In this document: piece after piece, positions 15,115-61,714 of the stretch | Layout: every line of letters starts with the position of its first letter | Position numbering within the stretch: the stretch's first letter is position 1 | DNA from: Halobacterium jilantaiense | GTDB taxonomy: Archaea > Halobacteriota > Halobacteria > Halobacteriales > Halobacteriaceae | DNA length: 64,000 nucleotides | Assembly: GCF_900110535.1 (NCBI RefSeq) | Contig: NZ_FOJA01000001.1 | Span: forward strand, 1,709,393-1,773,392 | Direction: 5' to 3' | Notes under the pieces: model-generated | Told to the model about the DNA's origin: nothing | What the model saw: only the letters and a program-made list of their open reading frames with translations | Database searches by the model: none | Translations under genes and position numbers: made by a program

Positions 15115-16752
15115 TTACGCGAACTTCCGCACCGTGATGTCCAGCGTGTCCAGATCGAGGATGGGGGCGGTGGCGACGTCGGGGTCGATGTTGACCGACT
15201 CCTGGAACGAGGTCTGGTGCTGCCAGCAGCCCGAGTTCACGAGGCGGACGTTGTGGTGTGCGCCGACGCCGAGCTTGTGGACGTGGCCGGTGTGGAAGAC
15301 GTCCGGGACGGTGTCGATGGCGAGGTAGTCTCGCTCCTCGGGCGCGATGCGGTTGCGCCCACCGAACTTCGGAGCGACGTGGCGCTTCTTCAGGAGGAGT
15401 TCCATCGCCCTGTGGGGGTTGTCGTAGGACACCTCGTCGCTGGGGTGTTCGGCGATGACCTCGTCGAGGGAGACGCCGTGGTACATGAGGATGTCGACCC
15501 CCTCGACGGTGACTGTGGACGGGTTCCCCGTGAACTGGGCGTCGTGGGCGCTCATGATGGAGCGCAGTTCCTCGTCGAAGGCGGGCTGCGGCTCCGCGAG
15601 GCGGACGGCGTCGTGGTTCCCCGGAATCATGACAATCTCCATGTCTCCGGGGACGTCCTTGAGGTGTTCAGCGAACGCCTCGTACTGCTCGTAGATGTCG
15701 ACGACGTCGAGTTCCTCGTCCTGACCGGGGTAGACGCCGACGCCCTCCACCATGTCGCCCGCGACGAGGAGGTACTCGACCGACTCGGCTTCGGGCGTGT
15801 GGAGCCAGTCCGCGAACGACTGCCAGGCGTCGGCGGCGAACTCCTGGCTGCCGACGTGGACGTCAGAGATGAGCGCGGCCTGCACGTGGCGGTCGGCCGT
15901 GTTCGGGTCGTAGGTCCGGGGGACCTCCGGGAAGTGGAGGTCGTCGACGAAGATGATGCCGCCGTCGTCGGCGAGCGTCCCCTCGACGGCGATGACTTCG
16001 TCCAGCAGGAGGTCGTCGACGAGGCTGGCGATGTCGCGGTCTTTCATCACGAGCGCGGGGAACACGCCGTTCGTGTCCTCCAGTTCGACCAGCCAGTGGC
16101 CGCTGGCGGTCGACCGAACGTCGTTGACCATGCCGACGACCGCGGCGTCGCTACCGCCCGGCATCGACTCCAGTGCGCTCGTCGGCCGGTGGTTCACGCG
16201 GCCCCGGAGCTGTTTCGAGAGCCGGTCGTAGCGGTCCCGGAACACCGACACGAAGTTCTTGTACTCGCCGGTCCCGGTGGACTCGCCCGTGATGTCTCCG
16301 TCGACGTCGACGCTCCGCAGGTCGGCGTTCGCGGCGCGGCCGCCCGCACCCCGGCCGCTGTCGGTCGCCTCGCGCTGCGTCGACTCGTCAGCCACCCCAG
16401 TGTCGACCCCCCTCGTTTCGTCTGGAGTGGTCGATTCAGTGACTGCTTCTGCCGCCGCAGCTCGTCCAGTCGAAGTAGAGGTCTGGTCGGGGGACGACTG
16501 GGTTGCTGACGAGGACGGTGACTCGGACGTGTCGGCTGCCGCCGCCGGGTCGGGCGCGCTGTCGCCGTCGAGGAGGTCCCTGACGTCCTCGACGGAGAGC
16601 GTCGCAGCGTCCTCGGGGGCTGCCTCGACGACGCGGTCGACGGCGTCCACGGGGTCGTCGGCACCCGCCAGCAGCGTCACCGCCTCGCGGTCGGCGTTGT
16701 AGCCCCGGCTCGTGAGCTCGCGGACGACGCGCACGGGTGGGGCTCGTGGCAC
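15115..16752 (-). CDS. polD1: DNA polymerase D small subunit DP1 (Mre11-like 3'-5' exonuclease)
   Basis: A 545-residue small subunit of the archaeal replicative polymerase PolD, giving proofreading next to the large DP2 subunit. The C-terminal calcineurin-like phosphoesterase has all metal-binding motifs: ISDVHVGS, AGDMVEG, PGNHDAV, YHGVS and FHTGHVHKLG. An OB-fold precedes it. The N-terminus has a short helical domain (VRVVRELTSRGYNADREA) and then a long Ser/Thr/Asp-rich linker, about residues 75-165. I propose the GTG at 16752; a GTG at 16734 is the alternative. The frame is open far upstream, but that part is antisense to sec11. Nearness to orc1 and sec11 matches other haloarchaeal main origins. 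Confidence 0.92.
   Translation of the reverse strand: MPRAPPVRVVRELTSRGYNADREAVTLLAGADDPVDAVDRVVEAAPEDAATLSVEDVRDLLDGDSAPDPAAAADTSESPSSSATQSSPDQTSTSTGRAAAAEAVTESTTPDETRGVDTGVADESTQREATDSGRGAGGRAANADLRSVDVDGDITGESTGTGEYKNFVSVFRDRYDRLSKQLRGRVNHRPTSALESMPGGSDAAVVGMVNDVRSTASGHWLVELEDTNGVFPALVMKDRDIASLVDDLLLDEVIAVEGTLADDGGIIFVDDLHFPEVPRTYDPNTADRHVQAALISDVHVGSQEFAADAWQSFADWLHTPEAESVEYLLVAGDMVEGVGVYPGQDEELDVVDIYEQYEAFAEHLKDVPGDMEIVMIPGNHDAVRLAEPQPAFDEELRSIMSAHDAQFTGNPSTVTVEGVDILMYHGVSLDEVIAEHPSDEVSYDNPHRAMELLLKKRHVAPKFGGRNRIAPEERDYLAIDTVPDVFHTGHVHKLGVGAHHNVRLVNSGCWQHQTSFQESVNIDPDVATAPILDLDTLDITVRKFA
16406..16430 (-). other. Degenerate ORB-like sequence within polD1
   Basis: CCCCCCTCGTTTCGTCTGGA resembles the ORB core seen in the origin (CCCCTTCGTTTCGNNTGGAA) and falls in the codons of the Ser/Thr-rich linker. 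It is weaker than the origin copies and may be chance. Confidence 0.3.
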
Positions 16753-19664: not shown

Positions 19665-21218
19665 CTAGTTGTCGAAGCGCGCCTGCACGAACGGCGTGAC
19701 GTTCTCGATGTCGCTGAGCCGGGAGTCCGCTTCGAGGACGGCCTCCGTCTCTTCGACTGGAACGGACAGCGAGATTTCCTTCGTGCGCCCGTAGCGTCCC
19801 TTCGAGACGACGACGGCGTTCACGATGCCGAGCATGTCGAGTTCGCTGATGAGGTCGGTGACCCGGCGCTGCGTGAGGACGTCGGCGTCCAGCTCGTCGC
19901 AGAGCGTCTTGTAGATGTTGTAGACTTCGCCCGTGTTCACGTTGTGGACGCCGTTGTCCTCCAGGAGGAGGATGGCGTAGAGGACGAGCTTGGACTGCGT
20001 CGGAAGGGTGCGGACGACTTCGACCACGCGGTCGAGTTCGATCTTGTCCTGGGCCCGTCGGACGTGCTCCTCGCTGACGGACTCAGACTGGTCGCGTTCG
20101 GCGAGTTCGCCCGCGGTCCGCAGCAGGTCGAGCGCGCGCCGCGCGTCGCCGTGCTCCTGAGCGGCGAACGCCGCGCACAGCGGGAGCACATCCTCGGAGA
20201 GCGCGTTCGCCTTGAACGCAACCTCGGAGCGGTGCTGGAGGATGTCCCGGAGCTGGTTCGCGTCGTACGGCGGGAACACGATCTCCTCCTCGCCGAGACT
20301 CGACTTCACCCGGGGGTCGAGGAAGTCGGTGAACTTCAGGTCGTTGCTGATGCCGATGATGGACACCCGGGAGTTGTCCAGTTCGGAGTTCATCCGGGAG
20401 AGGTTGTACAGCGTGTCGTCGCCGGACTTCTCGACGAGCTTGTCGATCTCGTCCAGCATGATGACCGCGACCCGTTCGACGTAGTCGACGGCGTCGAAGA
20501 ACGTCGCGTACACGCGGTCGGTCGGCCACCCCGTCATCGGGACCTGCTCCATCTCCGCCTTCTCCTCGTGGAGTGTCTCGATGCGCTCCTCGATATCCGC
20601 GACGGAGTCGAAACGCTTCCGGAGCTCTTCGAATTCGCCGTCCGGGTCGGCGCTGTCGTCTGGTTCGTCCGGCTCGGCGAACACGTCGTCCGACCCCCCG
20701 GTTTCGAGTGCAGCCGGGTCGGACTCCGCCTCGTCCCGGAGCGCCTCGAGTTCCTCGACTCGCGCGTCGACGAACGCCCGGTTCTGCTCGATGAACGTGT
20801 TCGCGAGCTGCGCGAGCACCCGGTACTGGGTGTCGGTCACCTCGCAGTTGATGTACTCTACCTCACACGGAACGTCGTACTTCTGGGAGGTCTTCTCCAG
20901 TTCCTGGCTGACGAACTTCGCGCTGGCAGTCTTCCCCGTCCCCGTCTTCCCGTAGATGAGGATGTTCGACGGCGTCTCACCGCGGAGCGCCGCGACCAGG
21001 ATGGTCGCCATGTTGTTGATCTGGTCTTTCCGGTGCGGGAGCTCGTGGGGAGTGTAGGAGGGACGGAGTACCTCCTTGTTCTCGAAGATGGGCTCGCCGC
21101 TCAGGAGGTCGTCGAACAGCCCCTCGTCGCCGTCCTCGTCGTCGAGGACGTCGTCGAGGTCGACCTCGAAGTCCCGGTCTGCCGTGCGTCGTCCGTCTGT
21201 CGGCGTTTCGTCTGACAT
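19665..21218 (-). CDS. orc1: Orc1/Cdc6 replication initiator, origin-linked
   Basis: A 517-residue AAA+ initiator that binds ORB sites and loads the MCM helicase. After an acidic N-terminus comes EPIFENKEVLRPSYTP, then Walker A YGKTGTGKTAS (90-99), Walker B VIMLDEIDKL near 245, sensor 1 IIGISNDLKF, the sensor 2 region with GDARRALDLLRTAGELAE, and a C-terminal winged helix for DNA binding. Residues 135-205 hold an acidic, partly coiled insertion (ELEALRDEAESD and later). It lies next to a non-coding origin with ORBs. I use the ATG at 21218; an in-frame ATG at 21230 would add four residues. It corresponds to the oriC1-linked Orc1 (orc7 in Halobacterium) by context. Confidence 0.95.
   Translation of the reverse strand: MSDETPTDGRRTADRDFEVDLDDVLDDEDGDEGLFDDLLSGEPIFENKEVLRPSYTPHELPHRKDQINNMATILVAALRGETPSNILIYGKTGTGKTASAKFVSQELEKTSQKYDVPCEVEYINCEVTDTQYRVLAQLANTFIEQNRAFVDARVEELEALRDEAESDPAALETGGSDDVFAEPDEPDDSADPDGEFEELRKRFDSVADIEERIETLHEEKAEMEQVPMTGWPTDRVYATFFDAVDYVERVAVIMLDEIDKLVEKSGDDTLYNLSRMNSELDNSRVSIIGISNDLKFTDFLDPRVKSSLGEEEIVFPPYDANQLRDILQHRSEVAFKANALSEDVLPLCAAFAAQEHGDARRALDLLRTAGELAERDQSESVSEEHVRRAQDKIELDRVVEVVRTLPTQSKLVLYAILLLEDNGVHNVNTGEVYNIYKTLCDELDADVLTQRRVTDLISELDMLGIVNAVVVSKGRYGRTKEISLSVPVEETEAVLEADSRLSDIENVTPFVQARFDN
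20692..20712 (-). other. Degenerate ORB-like sequence within orc1
   Basis: CCCCCCGGTTTCGAGTGCAG shares GTTTCGAGTG and a C-run with the origin boxes. It lies in the codons of the acidic insertion (LETGGSDD). Weak and possibly chance. Confidence 0.25.
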
Positions 21219-21230
21219 GTCTCGATCCAA

Positions 21231-21252
21231 CCCCTTCGTTTCGTGTGGAAAC
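21231..21252 (-). other. ORB A, in the orc1 leader
   Basis: CCCCTTCGTTTCGTGTGGAA (plus strand) is an ORB whose G-run points toward orc1. It ends directly before the possible orc1 ATG at 21230. A TATA-like TAATAT lies farther upstream on the minus strand (about 21291-21300), so the box would fall in the 5' leader. Confidence 0.75.
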
Positions 21253-21615
21253 TGAACGCGGCTGTAGAGCGCACAGAGAGCGGCGCTACACCGATATTAG
21301 TCGATTGCAGACCGGCTGGCGCTCCAGTTGATGCAGATGAAACAGTGGAAGCGAGGACGACTAATAAGTTTCGATGGGCGAGACTCTGACCGCACCGGGA
21401 CAGTCGAGTTCCGGTTCGGACGGCCGTCGGAGCGGTAGGCCTCGGCTCCGATTCGCTTGGGAGCGGGCTAGAGCGACCAGTCGAGAGTCTGCGTTCCCTG
21501 CTCCGAGTTGATGATGACGGCCACGACCGGTTCGGTCCGCCGCGGCGACGACACCTCGGGGCCGACGTTTCGAGTCGAGCAGGCTGTCGCCGATTCGGGA
21601 TCGGCGACGACCACA

Positions 21616-21628
21616 GTTCCAGTGGAAC
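21616..21628. other. Palindromic ORB half-site
   Basis: GTTCCAGTGGAAC is a perfect palindrome around one base and equals the first part of box B without the G-run. It may bind the initiator weakly. Confidence 0.4.
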
Positions 21629-21683
21629 GGGATCGGGAGTGCCAGCCGGCCGTCCAAGACTGGATTTGGCTCGGTGGAGAGAG

Positions 21684-21708
21684 GTTCCAGTGGAAACGGT
21701 GGGGTGGG
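21684..21708 (+). other. ORB B
   Basis: GTTCCAGTGGAAACGGTGGG followed by GTGGG: ORB core plus G-run on the plus strand, directed toward ORB C. Confidence 0.75.
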
Positions 21709-21729
21709 AATGTCGGACGGGGGGCAGCC

Positions 21730-21755
21730 CCCCACCCCTTCGTTTCGGGTGGAAC
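21730..21755 (-). other. ORB C
   Basis: Read on the minus strand it begins GTTCCACCCGAAACGAAGGG and continues into a long G-run. It faces ORB B and borders the AT-richer centre. It is one of the two most complete boxes. Confidence 0.8.
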
Positions 21756-21779
21756 AGCGAGAAAGGGTGGGTGGGGGGT

Positions 21780-21860
21780 ACCGGAATCGATTCTCTAGAT
21801 GGGAAAGCACTAAGTCACTACTGCTAAAACAGTATCCGCAAACCAGTAGCTGACTGGAAC
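21780..21860. other. Candidate DNA unwinding element
   Basis: The stretch around GATTCTCTAGATGGGAAAGC and the following CTAAAACAGTATCC is visibly AT-richer than its surroundings and lies between the oppositely oriented boxes C and D. A second AT-rich patch (TTAGCATTAATTTCTTC) lies at 22070-22090. Which one opens cannot be told from sequence alone. Confidence 0.45.
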
Positions 21861-21944
21861 TGTGGATGTGGAGTGGTCTAGTTCTAGTGGAGTCTGACCG
21901 CTCAGTCCCGTCTCGTTCGCGACCCCTCCCGGTCCATCCTCGTC

Positions 21945-21970
21945 CTCCACTCGAAACGAAGGGGTGGGGG
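21945..21970 (+). other. ORB D
   Basis: CTCCACTCGAAACGAAGGGG continues into TGGGGG. It is almost identical to ORB C in its second half and lies in opposite orientation, so the two frame the centre of the origin. Confidence 0.8.
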
Positions 21971-22182
21971 CTCAACTTCTCGTGTCCCTCTCAACTCCCA
22001 CTCACGCTCGCCTAGCCAAGCACTCACACGCTAGGCGCGCTCCCGGCGGACTAGCACACCTCCCTAACTCTCTTAGCATTAATTTCTTCGCGCACGCCCG
22101 CGACCCTCCGTTTCCCCTCCACCCGCTCGACACACCGGCCGGTGGTCTCGCTGGACGGCCGACACTCACGACCTCGCCGCCC

Positions 22183-22205
22183 GGTTCCACTCGAAACCCT
22201 CCCCG
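22183..22205 (+). other. ORB E (degenerate)
   Basis: GGTTCCACTCGAAACCCTCC keeps the TTCCACTCGAAAC core but has C-residues instead of the G-run. Probably a weak site. Confidence 0.45.
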
Positions 22206-22398
22206 TCGGCCGCGCGCTGGCTCCCGCGTTCGATTTCGACCCGGATCACCGGTCGAGGCACACGCGATCACGCCGCTCTCTCCAATTCCCGTATCTCCCG
22301 TCTGCCGTAGGTTTAAGTTGTCTCGCCGGTAGTCTCGACGTACTACGACCACCCCTGCGTCAAACATACAAAGGTCGGGGTGCGAATGGTGTTCAAAG

Positions 22399-23043
22399 AT
22401 GGGACTGTTCGCAGAGCTCAGAGACAGTGTATCCCGAGTCACGGCGAGCCTCTTCGCCGACGACTCGGAGCCGAAACGCATCGGGATTTACGGTCCGCCT
22501 AACGCGGGGAAGACGACACTCGCGAACCGCATCGCGCGGGACTGGACCGGTGACGCCGTCGGCCCCGAGAGCCACATCCCCCACGAAACGCGGCGCGCCC
22601 GCCGCAAGGAGGACGTGGAAATCGAACGCAACGGGAAGACCGTCAACATCGACATCGTCGACACGCCGGGCGTGACGACGAAAGTCGACTACTCGGAGTT
22701 CCTCGACCACGACATGGAGAAAGACGAGGCCGTGCGCCGCTCCCGCGAGGCCACCGAGGGCGTCGCGGAGGCGATGCACTGGCTGCGCGAGGACGTCGAC
22801 GGCGTCATCTACGTCCTCGACGCCACGGAGGACCCGTTCACGCAAGTGAACACGATGCTCATCGGTATCATCGAGAGCCGAGAGCTGCCCGTCCTCATCC
22901 TCGCGAACAAGACGGACCTCGATGACGCCAACATCCAGCGCGTGTCGAACGCGTTCCCCCAGCACGAGACCATCCCGCTGTCCGCCCTGGAGGGCGAGAA
23001 CATGGACGAGGTCTACGAGAAGATCGCGAAGTACTTCGGGTGA
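22399..23043 (+). CDS. oapA: Era-like GTPase, origin-associated protein OapA
   Basis: A 214-residue small GTPase. G1 is GPPNAGKTT (32-40), G3 is DTPGV (88-92), G4 is NKTD near 165 and G5 is SAL near 195. Between G1 and G3 is an unusual charged stretch (HETRRARRKEDVEIERNG). It is the first of three genes directly next to the origin; the set is known as oapABC in Haloferax volcanii, where a link to replication has been studied. The precise target of the GTPase is not known. Its stop is followed 5 bp later by the oapB ATG. Confidence 0.9.
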   Translation: MGLFAELRDSVSRVTASLFADDSEPKRIGIYGPPNAGKTTLANRIARDWTGDAVGPESHIPHETRRARRKEDVEIERNGKTVNIDIVDTPGVTTKVDYSEFLDHDMEKDEAVRRSREATEGVAEAMHWLREDVDGVIYVLDATEDPFTQVNTMLIGIIESRELPVLILANKTDLDDANIQRVSNAFPQHETIPLSALEGENMDEVYEKIAKYFG

Positions 23044-23048
23044 CCAGA

Positions 23049-23441
23049 ATGCCAGAGACCACTAGTGACGACGGGCCCGCCGAGGGCGTCCAGATCGACC
23101 TCATCAGCGGCGAGCGGATGGCCGGCAAGACGTCCATGGAGAAGATCCGGCTCATTCTCGACGGCGTCCGGGACGGCAACATCGTCGTGTTGGAGTCCGG
23201 GCTGACGCCGGACGAGGAGTCGAAGCTCATCGAGGTGACGATGAGCGAGATCAATCCGGACGGCTTCTCGGGCATCGAGATCGAGAGCTTCCCGCAGTCG
23301 GAGGCCTCTGACACGAGCCTACTCGGACGCCTGATGGGCAAACAGGAGACCTCGAAGCTCACCGTCATCGGGCCGGCCAACCAGATTCAGTCCCTGCACA
23401 AGGACGAGACGCTCATCAGCGCGCTCATCTCCCGCAAGTAA
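23049..23441 (+). CDS. oapB: DUF2073 protein, origin-associated protein OapB
   Basis: A 130-residue protein of the archaeal DUF2073 family. The core reads VQIDLISGERMAGKTSMEKI and later NIVVLESGLTPDEESKLIEV, and it ends with a HKDETLISALISRK tail. No catalytic motif is obvious; RMAGKTS looks like a P-loop fragment but lacks the usual spacing. I chose the ATG at 23049; a GTG at 23040 overlapping the oapA stop is possible. The gene is followed without any gap by oapC (TAAATG), so all three genes are one transcription unit. Confidence 0.88.
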   Translation: MPETTSDDGPAEGVQIDLISGERMAGKTSMEKIRLILDGVRDGNIVVLESGLTPDEESKLIEVTMSEINPDGFSGIEIESFPQSEASDTSLLGRLMGKQETSKLTVIGPANQIQSLHKDETLISALISRK

Positions 23442-24248
23442 ATGCCACACCAGTGCACGAACTGCGGGCACGTCTTCGAGGACGGCTCCAAGGAGATGCT
23501 GTCGGGCTGCCCGGACTGCGGCGGGAACAAGTTCCAGTACCACCCGGGCGAGGTCCCCGAGGAGTCGTCTGAGCGAGCGGACGACGCGGAGCCGCCCGAA
23601 CCGGAGGGCGGCTCCGTTTCAGGTGCGGTCGGTCGCGCCGCGAACCGCGTGCGCGACGCCGTCTCCAGCGGCCCAAGTGGCGACGACGATGCGGCCGACG
23701 CGTCTGTCATCGAGTCCGCCGACGGAGACGTGACCACTCAGTCTGCCGACGCCCCGCCGGAGCCCGCTGCCGAGCCTGTCGAGGACGCCGTGACCGACGA
23801 TGTGGCGACCGACGCCGTGACCGACGCGACCGACGCACCCGAAACGGGGGACGGACAGACAGCGGACGCCGCGGTCGACCCGAATCCGGCCGTCGACGCG
23901 GACGCCGAGCCCGGCGTGAAGGCGTCGACGGCAGACTCCGAGGACAGCGCGCAGGCCGAGGCACGCAGCGGGGTCGTCGACATGGCGGACCTCCCGGACC
24001 GCGCCGAGGACGGCCGCGTCGTGAAAGAGCCCGACGACTCCGAGGACCGGCCGGACCTCGAAGACCTCCGGCAGGAGCTCAACGACCAGTTCGAGTCCAT
24101 CCGCATCGTCGCGCCCGGCCAGTACGAACTCAACCTCATGGAGTTGTACGACCGTCAGGAGTACATCATCGCGCTCCAGGAGGACGGCCAGTACGTCATC
24201 GAGGTGCCGGACGCCTGGGAGGCACCCGACCCGACGGACGCCGAGTAA
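23442..24248 (+). CDS. oapC: Zinc-ribbon protein, origin-associated protein OapC
   Basis: A 268-residue protein with three parts: an N-terminal zinc ribbon (CTNCGH at 5-10, CPDCGGNKF at 23-31); a very long acidic, Ala/Asp/Thr-rich linker with variable repeats (about 45-180); and a conserved C-terminal domain, RPDLEDLRQELNDQFESIRI then GQYELNLMELYDRQEYIIAL. The C-terminal part probably binds a partner, possibly OapB (inference). Its ATG directly follows the oapB stop. The linker codons contain a sequence similar to an ORB (23835-23851). Confidence 0.88.
   Translation: MPHQCTNCGHVFEDGSKEMLSGCPDCGGNKFQYHPGEVPEESSERADDAEPPEPEGGSVSGAVGRAANRVRDAVSSGPSGDDDAADASVIESADGDVTTQSADAPPEPAAEPVEDAVTDDVATDAVTDATDAPETGDGQTADAAVDPNPAVDADAEPGVKASTADSEDSAQAEARSGVVDMADLPDRAEDGRVVKEPDDSEDRPDLEDLRQELNDQFESIRIVAPGQYELNLMELYDRQEYIIALQEDGQYVIEVPDAWEAPDPTDAE
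23835..23851 (+). other. Degenerate ORB-like sequence within oapC
   Basis: GCACCCGAAACGGGGGA resembles the second half of ORB C (CACCCGAAACGAAGGGG) with two bases missing. It lies in the codons of the acidic linker. Confidence 0.3.
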
Positions 24249-28849: not shown

Positions 28850-29878
28850 CTACTCCGGCAGCACGTCGGCGTCGCTCGGCTCGAACGACACTGTCGCGGG
28901 TCCGGGGTCGGGCGCGTCGGTGGTCTTGACCAGCAACTGGGTGCCGTGCCAGTCGCAGTACACCTTGTAGGCGTCCCCGAGGAACTCCGCGCGTCCGACG
29001 GTGACGTCGAGTTCGTTTCCACCCGAACCGAAGGACAGCGACTCCGGGCGCAGACCGATGGCGACGGTACCGGTGGCCGAATCTGCCACCTCGAACGACG
29101 CCGGACCGACCGATACGGAAGACCCCTTCGTTTCGAGTGGAGACGCGGTCCCGTCGAGGACGTTGTTGTCGCCGACGAACTCCGCGACGAACCGCGACGC
29201 CGGCTCTCGGTAGACTTCCTCGGGCGTCCCGACCTGCTCGACGCGGCCGGAATTCATCACGGCGACGCGGTCCGAGATGGAGAGCGCCTCCTCCTGGTCG
29301 TGCGTGACGTAGACGGTCGTGATGTCGAGTTCGCGCTGAATCTCCTTGACCGTCCCGCGCAGGCGCTCGCGGAGCCGCGCGTCCAGCGCGCTCATCGGCT
29401 CGTCCAGCAACAGCACGCTCGGGCCCGGCGCGAGCGCGCGAGCCAGCGCGACGCGCTGCTGCTGGCCGCCGGAGAGCGCCGTCGGGTCCCGGTCCGCCAT
29501 CCCCGGGAGGTCGACCAGCTCCAGGAGTTCGGTCACGCGCTCCTCGGTCGAGACGCCGCCGGGCGGGTCCCGGAAGCGCAGCCCGTAGGCGACGTTCTCG
29601 CCGACGGTCATGTGCGGGAACAGCGCGTAGCTCTGGAACACGATGCCCACGTCGCGGTCCTCGGGCGGAACGCCCGCCACCGACTCGCCGCCGAAGCGGA
29701 CGTCGCCCGCGTCGGGCTCCTCGAACCCCGCGACGAGGCGGAGCGTCGTCGTCTTCCCGCAGCCCGACGGTCCGACGAGCGTGAAGAACTCGCCGTCCGC
29801 GACGGTCACGGACACGTCGTCGACGGCTCTCGTCGGGCCGAACTCGCGGACGAGTCCGTCCAGGTCGACGCTGGTCAT
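28850..29878 (-). CDS. thiQ: ABC transporter ATP-binding protein, thiamine/spermidine/iron type
   Basis: A 342-residue ATPase of the CUT/spermidine-iron-thiamine import group. Walker A is GPSGCGKTTT, Q-loop VFQSYALFPHM, signature LSGGQQQRVALARAL, Walker B VLLLDEPMSALD and H-loop VYVTHDQEEAL. The C-terminal third is a TOBE domain with IGLRPESLSF, longer than in E. coli ThiQ. The ATG overlaps the permease stop by 4 bp. With the thiB-like binding protein the likely cargo is thiamine; iron or polyamine remains possible. The TOBE codons contain a near-perfect ORB (29123-29144). Confidence 0.87.
   Translation of the reverse strand: MTSVDLDGLVREFGPTRAVDDVSVTVADGEFFTLVGPSGCGKTTTLRLVAGFEEPDAGDVRFGGESVAGVPPEDRDVGIVFQSYALFPHMTVGENVAYGLRFRDPPGGVSTEERVTELLELVDLPGMADRDPTALSGGQQQRVALARALAPGPSVLLLDEPMSALDARLRERLRGTVKEIQRELDITTVYVTHDQEEALSISDRVAVMNSGRVEQVGTPEEVYREPASRFVAEFVGDNNVLDGTASPLETKGSSVSVGPASFEVADSATGTVAIGLRPESLSFGSGGNELDVTVGRAEFLGDAYKVYCDWHGTQLLVKTTDAPDPGPATVSFEPSDADVLPE
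29123..29144 (-). other. ORB-like site within the thiQ coding region
   Basis: CCCCTTCGTTTCGAGTGGAG then AC: it matches origin boxes A and C in the whole core and C/G-run, 7.8 kb away from ORB A. It encodes SPLETKG of the TOBE domain. A further weak relative (GTTTCCACCCGAACCGAAGG) begins about 29015 in the other orientation. Confidence 0.6.
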
Positions 29879-61590: not shown

Positions 61591-61714
61591 CGGGCGACGT
61601 TTCGAGTGGAACTCGCTCGCACACCGCACCCGGCGCGACTGACTTCCGACTACTTTCTCTCCGGTGGAAACGCACGACTGCGGGCTCCCGACACCCCTTC
61701 GTTTCGACTGGAAC
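61591..61714. other. Group of ORB-like sites in the gap before cgi121
   Basis: The 207 bp between the zinc-protein and cgi121 stops hold three related elements, all in one orientation: CGACGTTTCGAGTGGAAC (61595-61612), a partial CTCTCCGGTGGAAACG (61657-61672), and a near-perfect ACACCCCTTCGTTTCGACTG followed by GAAC (61691-61714). The last matches the best origin boxes. The region is non-coding between convergent genes, an unusual place for initiator sites 40 kb from the origin. Confidence 0.6.

Follow-up and report, generated by a model that had tools for sequence, protein, structure and literature searches.

Introduction

The closest described system is oriC1-cdc6A of Haloarcula hispanica, an intergenic origin adjacent to its initiator gene. 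This origin carries an inverted pair of ORBs, each with an extended G-run that is essential for autonomous replication; the pair flanks an AT-rich centre and encloses a G-rich repeat that enhances activity (PMC3936714). The same study describes oriC2D, a single 722-bp intergenic region next to cdc6E that holds 11 ORBs; it is not itself an origin and acts against oriC2, probably by titration (PMC3936714). In the accessible text of the main haloarchaeal origin papers, ORBs are described next to cdc6 genes only. Initiator boxes off the origin are also found at the DnaA-titrating locus datA of E. coli, which is proposed to limit initiation. Bacterial parS is a short motif concentrated near the origin and often located inside coding sequence.

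The region considered here, 21219–22398, lies in a 64-kb stretch of the Halobacterium jilantaiense genome, the whole of which is referred to as the window. It had previously been read, from the letters alone, as the main replication origin with a complete, ordered set of five ORBs (A–E). We find that the origin core is of the type known from H. hispanica, and that boxes with the same core recur outside it, concentrated near oriC1 across the order. We rate at about even the chance that oriC1, with its initiating C/D pair, is accompanied by a second, putatively non-initiating class of Orc1 boxes, most likely acting as an initiator sink.

Results

The intergenic region between orc1 and oapABC

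The gene-free region is flanked on one side by the orc1/cdc6 initiator gene of oriC1 (19665–21218, minus strand, 517 aa; Pfam Cdc6_C, E 7.7e-33, Cdc6_lid, and AAA), which is the top of four Cdc6_C matches genome-wide, and on the other by the oapA-oapB-oapC operon (arvABC; 22399–24248, plus strand; Pfam MMR_HSR1, OapB 1.7e-42, and OapC 3e-30). Both flanks had been named in the sequence-only reading, as had the absence of genes, and these profile matches, together with the lack of any plausible gene in the interval, bear it out. The arrangement follows the conserved gene order, in which the origin region adjoins an Orc1-type cdc6 with oapABC opposite. The small GTPase encoded by oapA belongs to a family (ArvA) that drives extracellular vesicle formation in H. 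volcanii (PMC10927574), and the name "origin-associated" may therefore reflect location rather than function.

A search with the ORB core TCCANNNGAAACGAAGGGG returned eight matches at ≤3 mismatches in the window, against 0.45 expected from shuffles; none of 100 shuffles reached eight. The central pair consists of box C (21728–21753, minus strand; core 21735–21753), an exact ORB carrying the extended haloarchaeal G-run (GGGGTGGGGGG), and box D (21946–21970, plus strand; core 21946–21964), likewise exact and extended (GGGGTGGGGG). The two are divergent and are the only boxes with the full GGGGTGGGGG extension. Between them lies an AT-rich centre (21787–21880), the presumed unwinding region, with 57% AT across 21790–21850; the AT-richest point (GC 0.48–0.50) and the maximum of the cumulative GC skew both fall at ~21.80–21.90 kb. 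Inside the pair, a G-rich motif (GGGTGGGTGGGGGG, 21765–21778, plus strand) resembles the enhancer repeat of H. hispanica oriC1; this left arm is clear, and the right side has only its short partner CCCCTCCC (21923–21930, plus strand).

The remaining three boxes are of uneven quality. Box A (21231–21249, minus strand) has an exact core without a G-run and stands beside the orc1 start; box B (21686–21704, plus strand), which faces box C, is partial, with two mismatches; and box E (22186–22204, plus strand), without a G-string, is a half-box, since TCCACTCGAAAC is followed by CCTCCCC and only 9 of 16 consensus positions agree. Thus, of the five ORBs proposed earlier, A, C, and D are exact, B is partial, and E is a half-box, so that "complete" overstated the set, the more so because A fits better into a second pair described below. 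The facing of B and C, the opposed orientation of C and D around an AT-richer centre, and the haloarchaeal-type extra G-run of C and D alone are all confirmed. What that reading missed is that the boxes reach far past the intergenic region, with copies of the same type at 29123, 61694, and 16408.

Taken as a whole, the sequence strongly supports the interpretation of 21219–22398 as the haloarchaeal main replication origin oriC1, as had been proposed: the box type is order-wide and the layout matches that of H. hispanica oriC1 in orc1-adjacent intergenic position, divergent ORBs with G-runs, AT-rich centre, and internal G-rich repeat (PMC3936714). The core is not essentially different from its H. 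hispanica counterpart, apart from the shortness of the G-rich repeat on the right side; it is an ordinary origin core and a further example of an already known haloarchaeal type.

A second divergent pair across the orc1 promoter

Box A is situated 13 bp upstream of the start codon of orc1, and an inverted but degenerate counterpart (TGCAGATGAAACAGTGGAA, 21332–21350, plus strand) stands at an offset of 101 bp. In some 30 relatives, the homologue of box A is paired with an inverted box 104–110 bp (about 107 bp) upstream. Because of its distance from the start codon and its membership of this second divergent pair, box A more likely belongs to an orc1-control element than to the core origin. The pair is probably autoregulatory.

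In two genomes of genus g38 (G084 and G088; loci L233–L239), rearrangement has moved orc1 and the G-run-bearing ORB pair of oriC1 apart, by ~1.35 Mb in G084 and ~150 kb in G088. Origin and initiator gene therefore need not be neighbours.

Satellite boxes around oriC1

A box search of the whole genome located exact matches outside the origin at window positions 29123 and 61694, and one-mismatch matches at 16408 and ~130 kb away; the genome holds no further satellites at ≤1 mismatch. The first exact satellite (29123–29141, minus strand), without a G-run, is in the stretch of an ABC ATPase gene that encodes the C-terminal part, 284 bp past a methyltransferase gene, and has a weak inverted partner at 29018–29036 (plus strand). 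The second (61694–61712, minus strand), also without a G-run, lies 22 bp past the stop codon of cgi121, which encodes a KEOPS subunit. The remaining Cdc6_C matches in the genome are elsewhere, the nearest (weak) one being ~130 kb off, and we therefore rejected other Orc paralogues as the reason for the satellites of the window.

Exact boxes occur in 235 of 243 genomes of the order, and a reversed control pattern has no match in the same 243 genomes. Among the 72 genomes in which Orc1 could be located, 257 of the 268 exact boxes are ≤200 kb from Orc1; 108 of the 268 are satellites, that is, >3.5 kb from Orc1, and 97 of these 108 lie within 200 kb of it (p ~1e-69 against 14%, a value that is indicative only, as the genomes are related, and with around-circle distances that partly rest on approximated contig sizes). 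Similarly, we examined 91 genomes that have an exact divergent pair: of the 120 other boxes located on the contig of that pair, 112 are ≤200 kb from it, and 3 of the 8 beyond that distance appear far only through the circularity of the chromosome. A chance origin of the boxes is rejected by the reversed pattern, the shuffles, and the concentration near Orc1. Local base composition near the origin is likewise rejected, since the reversed pattern is of equal composition.

The satellites number about one to five per genome. Three sites recur across families: one inside dp1, one past cgi121 or DUF5789, and one 3' of the methyltransferase gene. The second of these comes directly after cgi121 or after the DUF5789 gene downstream of it, frequently next to purO, and is ~10 to 138 kb from oriC1, depending on the species; in Halobacterium, it stays beside the gene at 30–138 kb, on either side of oriC1. 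In Halobacterium, the cgi121 satellites (the 61694 region; L046, L047, and L049–L052) are mostly followed, 100–102 bp further on, by a second half-box, TCCANNNGAAACG, of the same orientation, and several genomes of family f8 and one of family f5 have an inverted half-box at −46. These half-boxes are lineage-specific, and a general fixed partner for the cgi121 site was rejected. With regard to orientation, 77 of 112 satellites point outward from the origin; we draw no conclusion from this, because orthologous sites are not independent and those of Halobacterium point inward on the oap side.

Two observations concern boxes farther afield. The one-mismatch ORB ~130 kb from oriC1 lies beside the weak, sub-threshold Cdc6_C match (G000:C1:1862085 and 1863820), and the two together are perhaps a decayed second origin. 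In three other genomes of the phylum (G264, G284, and G296), two TCCACAGGAAACAAAGGGG-type boxes stand 8–11 kb apart in opposite orientation, hinting that outlying sites of this kind may not be limited to haloarchaea.

The extended G-run is concentrated in the oriC pair

With the oriC pair defined by its geometry and not by the G-run, the extended G-run is present in 120 of 144 oriC-pair boxes, as compared to 3 of 86 dp1 boxes and 5 of 108 others. Since the satellites mostly have no extended G-run, and since the G-run is essential for origin activity in H. hispanica, they are most simply regarded as non-initiating sites, which would bind Orc1 without starting replication.

An inverted pair inside dp1

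The box at 16408 lies in dp1 (polD1; 15115–16752, minus strand, start estimated), the gene for the small subunit of DNA polymerase D (Pfam DNA_pol_E_B, 1.2e-12; alignment with relatives). The position of dp1 (HVO_0003) near oriC1 has been reported, in a paper whose available text does not mention the boxes (PMC7776575). This arm F (TCCAGACGAAACGAGGGGG, 16408–16426, minus strand) has one mismatch to the core, and its inverted counterpart, arm R (16465–16483, plus strand), is degenerate (11/16) and stands at a conserved 57-bp offset; both have order-wide homologues. The comparison covered 80 haloarchaeal dp1 loci from across the order; the loci are related, and p-values that assume independence are only indicative. 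The inverted partner is present in most of the 80. The F box lies in a variable linker of dp1, in one and the same reading frame in 75 of 75 loci, and the R box lies upstream of it, exactly 57 bp away in 56 of the 75 loci with a good F box; this offset is seen in 61 of 71 dp1 pairs.

The codons that make up the boxes are unusual for the gene. When the F arm is anchored on the peptide [PA]xE[TA]xG alone, its codons are CCA in 61/63 loci (7–12% elsewhere in the gene), GAA in 73/74 (32–46%), ACG in 52/67 (31–41%), and GGG in 66/74 (22–24%). The R arm is encoded by GTT in 34/34 (6–13%), ACT in 43/43 (6–9%), and GGA in 46/48 (9–17%). At positions with varying residues (K/E/G/R/M, or V/A/S/T/I), the base required by the motif is mostly kept: the third base is mostly T at codon 0 (residues S, V, T, and A) and mostly G at codon 5 (residues K, E, G, and R). 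Invariant residues in other parts of dp1 are usually encoded predominantly by a common codon, for example, GTC, GGC, or CAC. The dp1 boxes are thus selected as DNA, and not as peptide or RNA. Selection on the peptide is rejected by the fixation of rare codons at both arms while residues vary, and an RNA hairpin by the lack of compensatory changes between the arms, which agree at variable core positions about as often as expected, with a weak excess at the central triplet only (18 vs. 11.6).

Among 30 DP1 loci representing other families in the phylum, none showed a comparable pair, which rules against a pair ancestral to all archaea; in one locus (L222), a lone 15/16 box lies outside the portion matching dp1. 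Within the order, H. salinarum (L098) has lost both boxes, and the pair is therefore dispensable in at least one species; the copy in the window is itself partly decayed. One genome (G218) keeps a perfect pair with dp1 ~74 kb away. In G084, where rearrangement has split the oriC1 pair, orc1, and dp1, the dp1 gene lies 194 kb from orc1 and 1.54 Mb from the oriC1 pair; it nevertheless retains its own two boxes (16/16 and 14/16) at an offset of 57, just as orc1 retains the promoter pair. Strict proximity to the origin is consequently not required for the dp1 pair.

Discussion

A full-text search of the open literature, where absence is not proof, retrieved no description of the satellite or dp1 boxes, which point to a layer of replication control without a description found in that literature. 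We propose, by analogy with the oriC1 of relatives, that Orc1 would bind C and D, the divergent boxes, that the additional G-runs of this pair would make it initiate, and that the AT-rich centre would then open and MCM be loaded. The second class, with the same core and no extended G-run, would comprise the orc1-promoter pair, the dp1 pair, and the boxes past cgi121/DUF5789 and near the methyltransferase gene. As a guess at their function, the satellites may hold Orc1 as a sink: being duplicated early after the fork leaves oriC1, they would reduce the amount of free Orc1, thereby limiting re-initiation; the promoter pair, for its part, would let Orc1 repress its own gene.

The sink is the likeliest role, because it needs only binding and accounts for sites both in the middle of genes and beyond stop codons, and because oriC2D, within the same group, provides a precedent. 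Indeed, the satellites match the initiator's own origin boxes and lie outside the origin proper, as do the boxes of oriC2D, for which titration has been proposed (PMC3936714). In contrast to oriC2D as described there, they are sparse, single or paired, partly inside genes, up to >100 kb away, and associated with oriC1/Orc1. They resemble E. coli datA in being initiator boxes off the origin that may limit initiation; however, the initiator and boxes of datA are unrelated to those found here, and the sink role of the satellites is putative. As each site is a single box or one pair and not a dense cluster, we do not class the satellites with oriC2D or datA; they are at most alike in working. Given about one to five satellites per genome, a sink would need either low Orc1 levels or strong sites.

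It is unlikely, yet a serious alternative, that the sites instead serve gene-linked control, with Orc1 in dp1, past cgi121, and at its own promoter acting as a transcription roadblock or repressor that links the expression of a small number of genes, that of PolD included, to the level of free Orc1. The reason to take it seriously is G084, in which the dp1 and orc1-promoter pairs have travelled with their genes; the cgi121 site of Halobacterium also keeps its place beside the gene over its whole range of distances. However, apart from that of orc1, the sites are in mid-coding sequence or just past stop codons rather than in promoters, and the orientation relative to cgi121 varies among families.

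We consider rather unlikely a system for architecture or segregation, in which the initiator, bound at several sites, would mark and organise the origin domain. The order-wide concentration near oriC1, the location of sites in coding sequence and after genes, and the fixed dp1 spacing would all suit such a system, and bacterial parS offers a parallel in its concentration near the origin, partly within coding sequence. The parS motif is nevertheless a different one, the satellite motif being the initiator's own box, and both the low number of sites per genome and the natural tolerance to loss of the dp1 pair speak against this role.

A role of the dp1 pair as a dormant or backup origin is very unlikely. 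Its inverted ORBs share the polarity of the oriC1 C/D pair, but they are separated by only 38 bp that form no AT-rich unwinding region (39% AT vs. ~33% in the flanks), and they almost always lack the extended G-run that oriC1 of H. hispanica needs for its activity. There is next to no likelihood that the dp1 sequence is kept for its peptide (PSVST..PVETKG) or as an mRNA hairpin, with an incidental likeness to ORBs. In favour of this reading, an alignment of nine proteins shows no variation at the E, T, and G of the peptide, and the two arms are complementary. Against it stand the fixation of rare synonymous codons, a wobble base that is mostly retained when the amino acid differs, and arms that agree no more than expected save for the weak excess noted above.

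Returning to the initiator sink and its two box classes, a broader formulation appears possible, and we hold it tentatively, at slightly under even chances: ancient, order-wide, non-initiating Orc1 sites around oriC1, including the dp1 pair with its rare codons and fixed spacing, would couple the availability of the initiator to how the origin domain is replicated or organised, and the G-run would tell the ORB classes apart.

Implications

The comparison suggests a simple sequence rule, by which the core plus the G-run initiates and the core alone does not, and origin searches based on ORBs only should allow for a second class of boxes. If the outlying boxes bind Orc1, synonymous recoding of dp1 would remove a site and leave the protein untouched, in haloarchaea that are genetically tractable. 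The finding thereby bears on the poorly known control of origin re-firing in archaea and on the purpose of their extra initiator sites.
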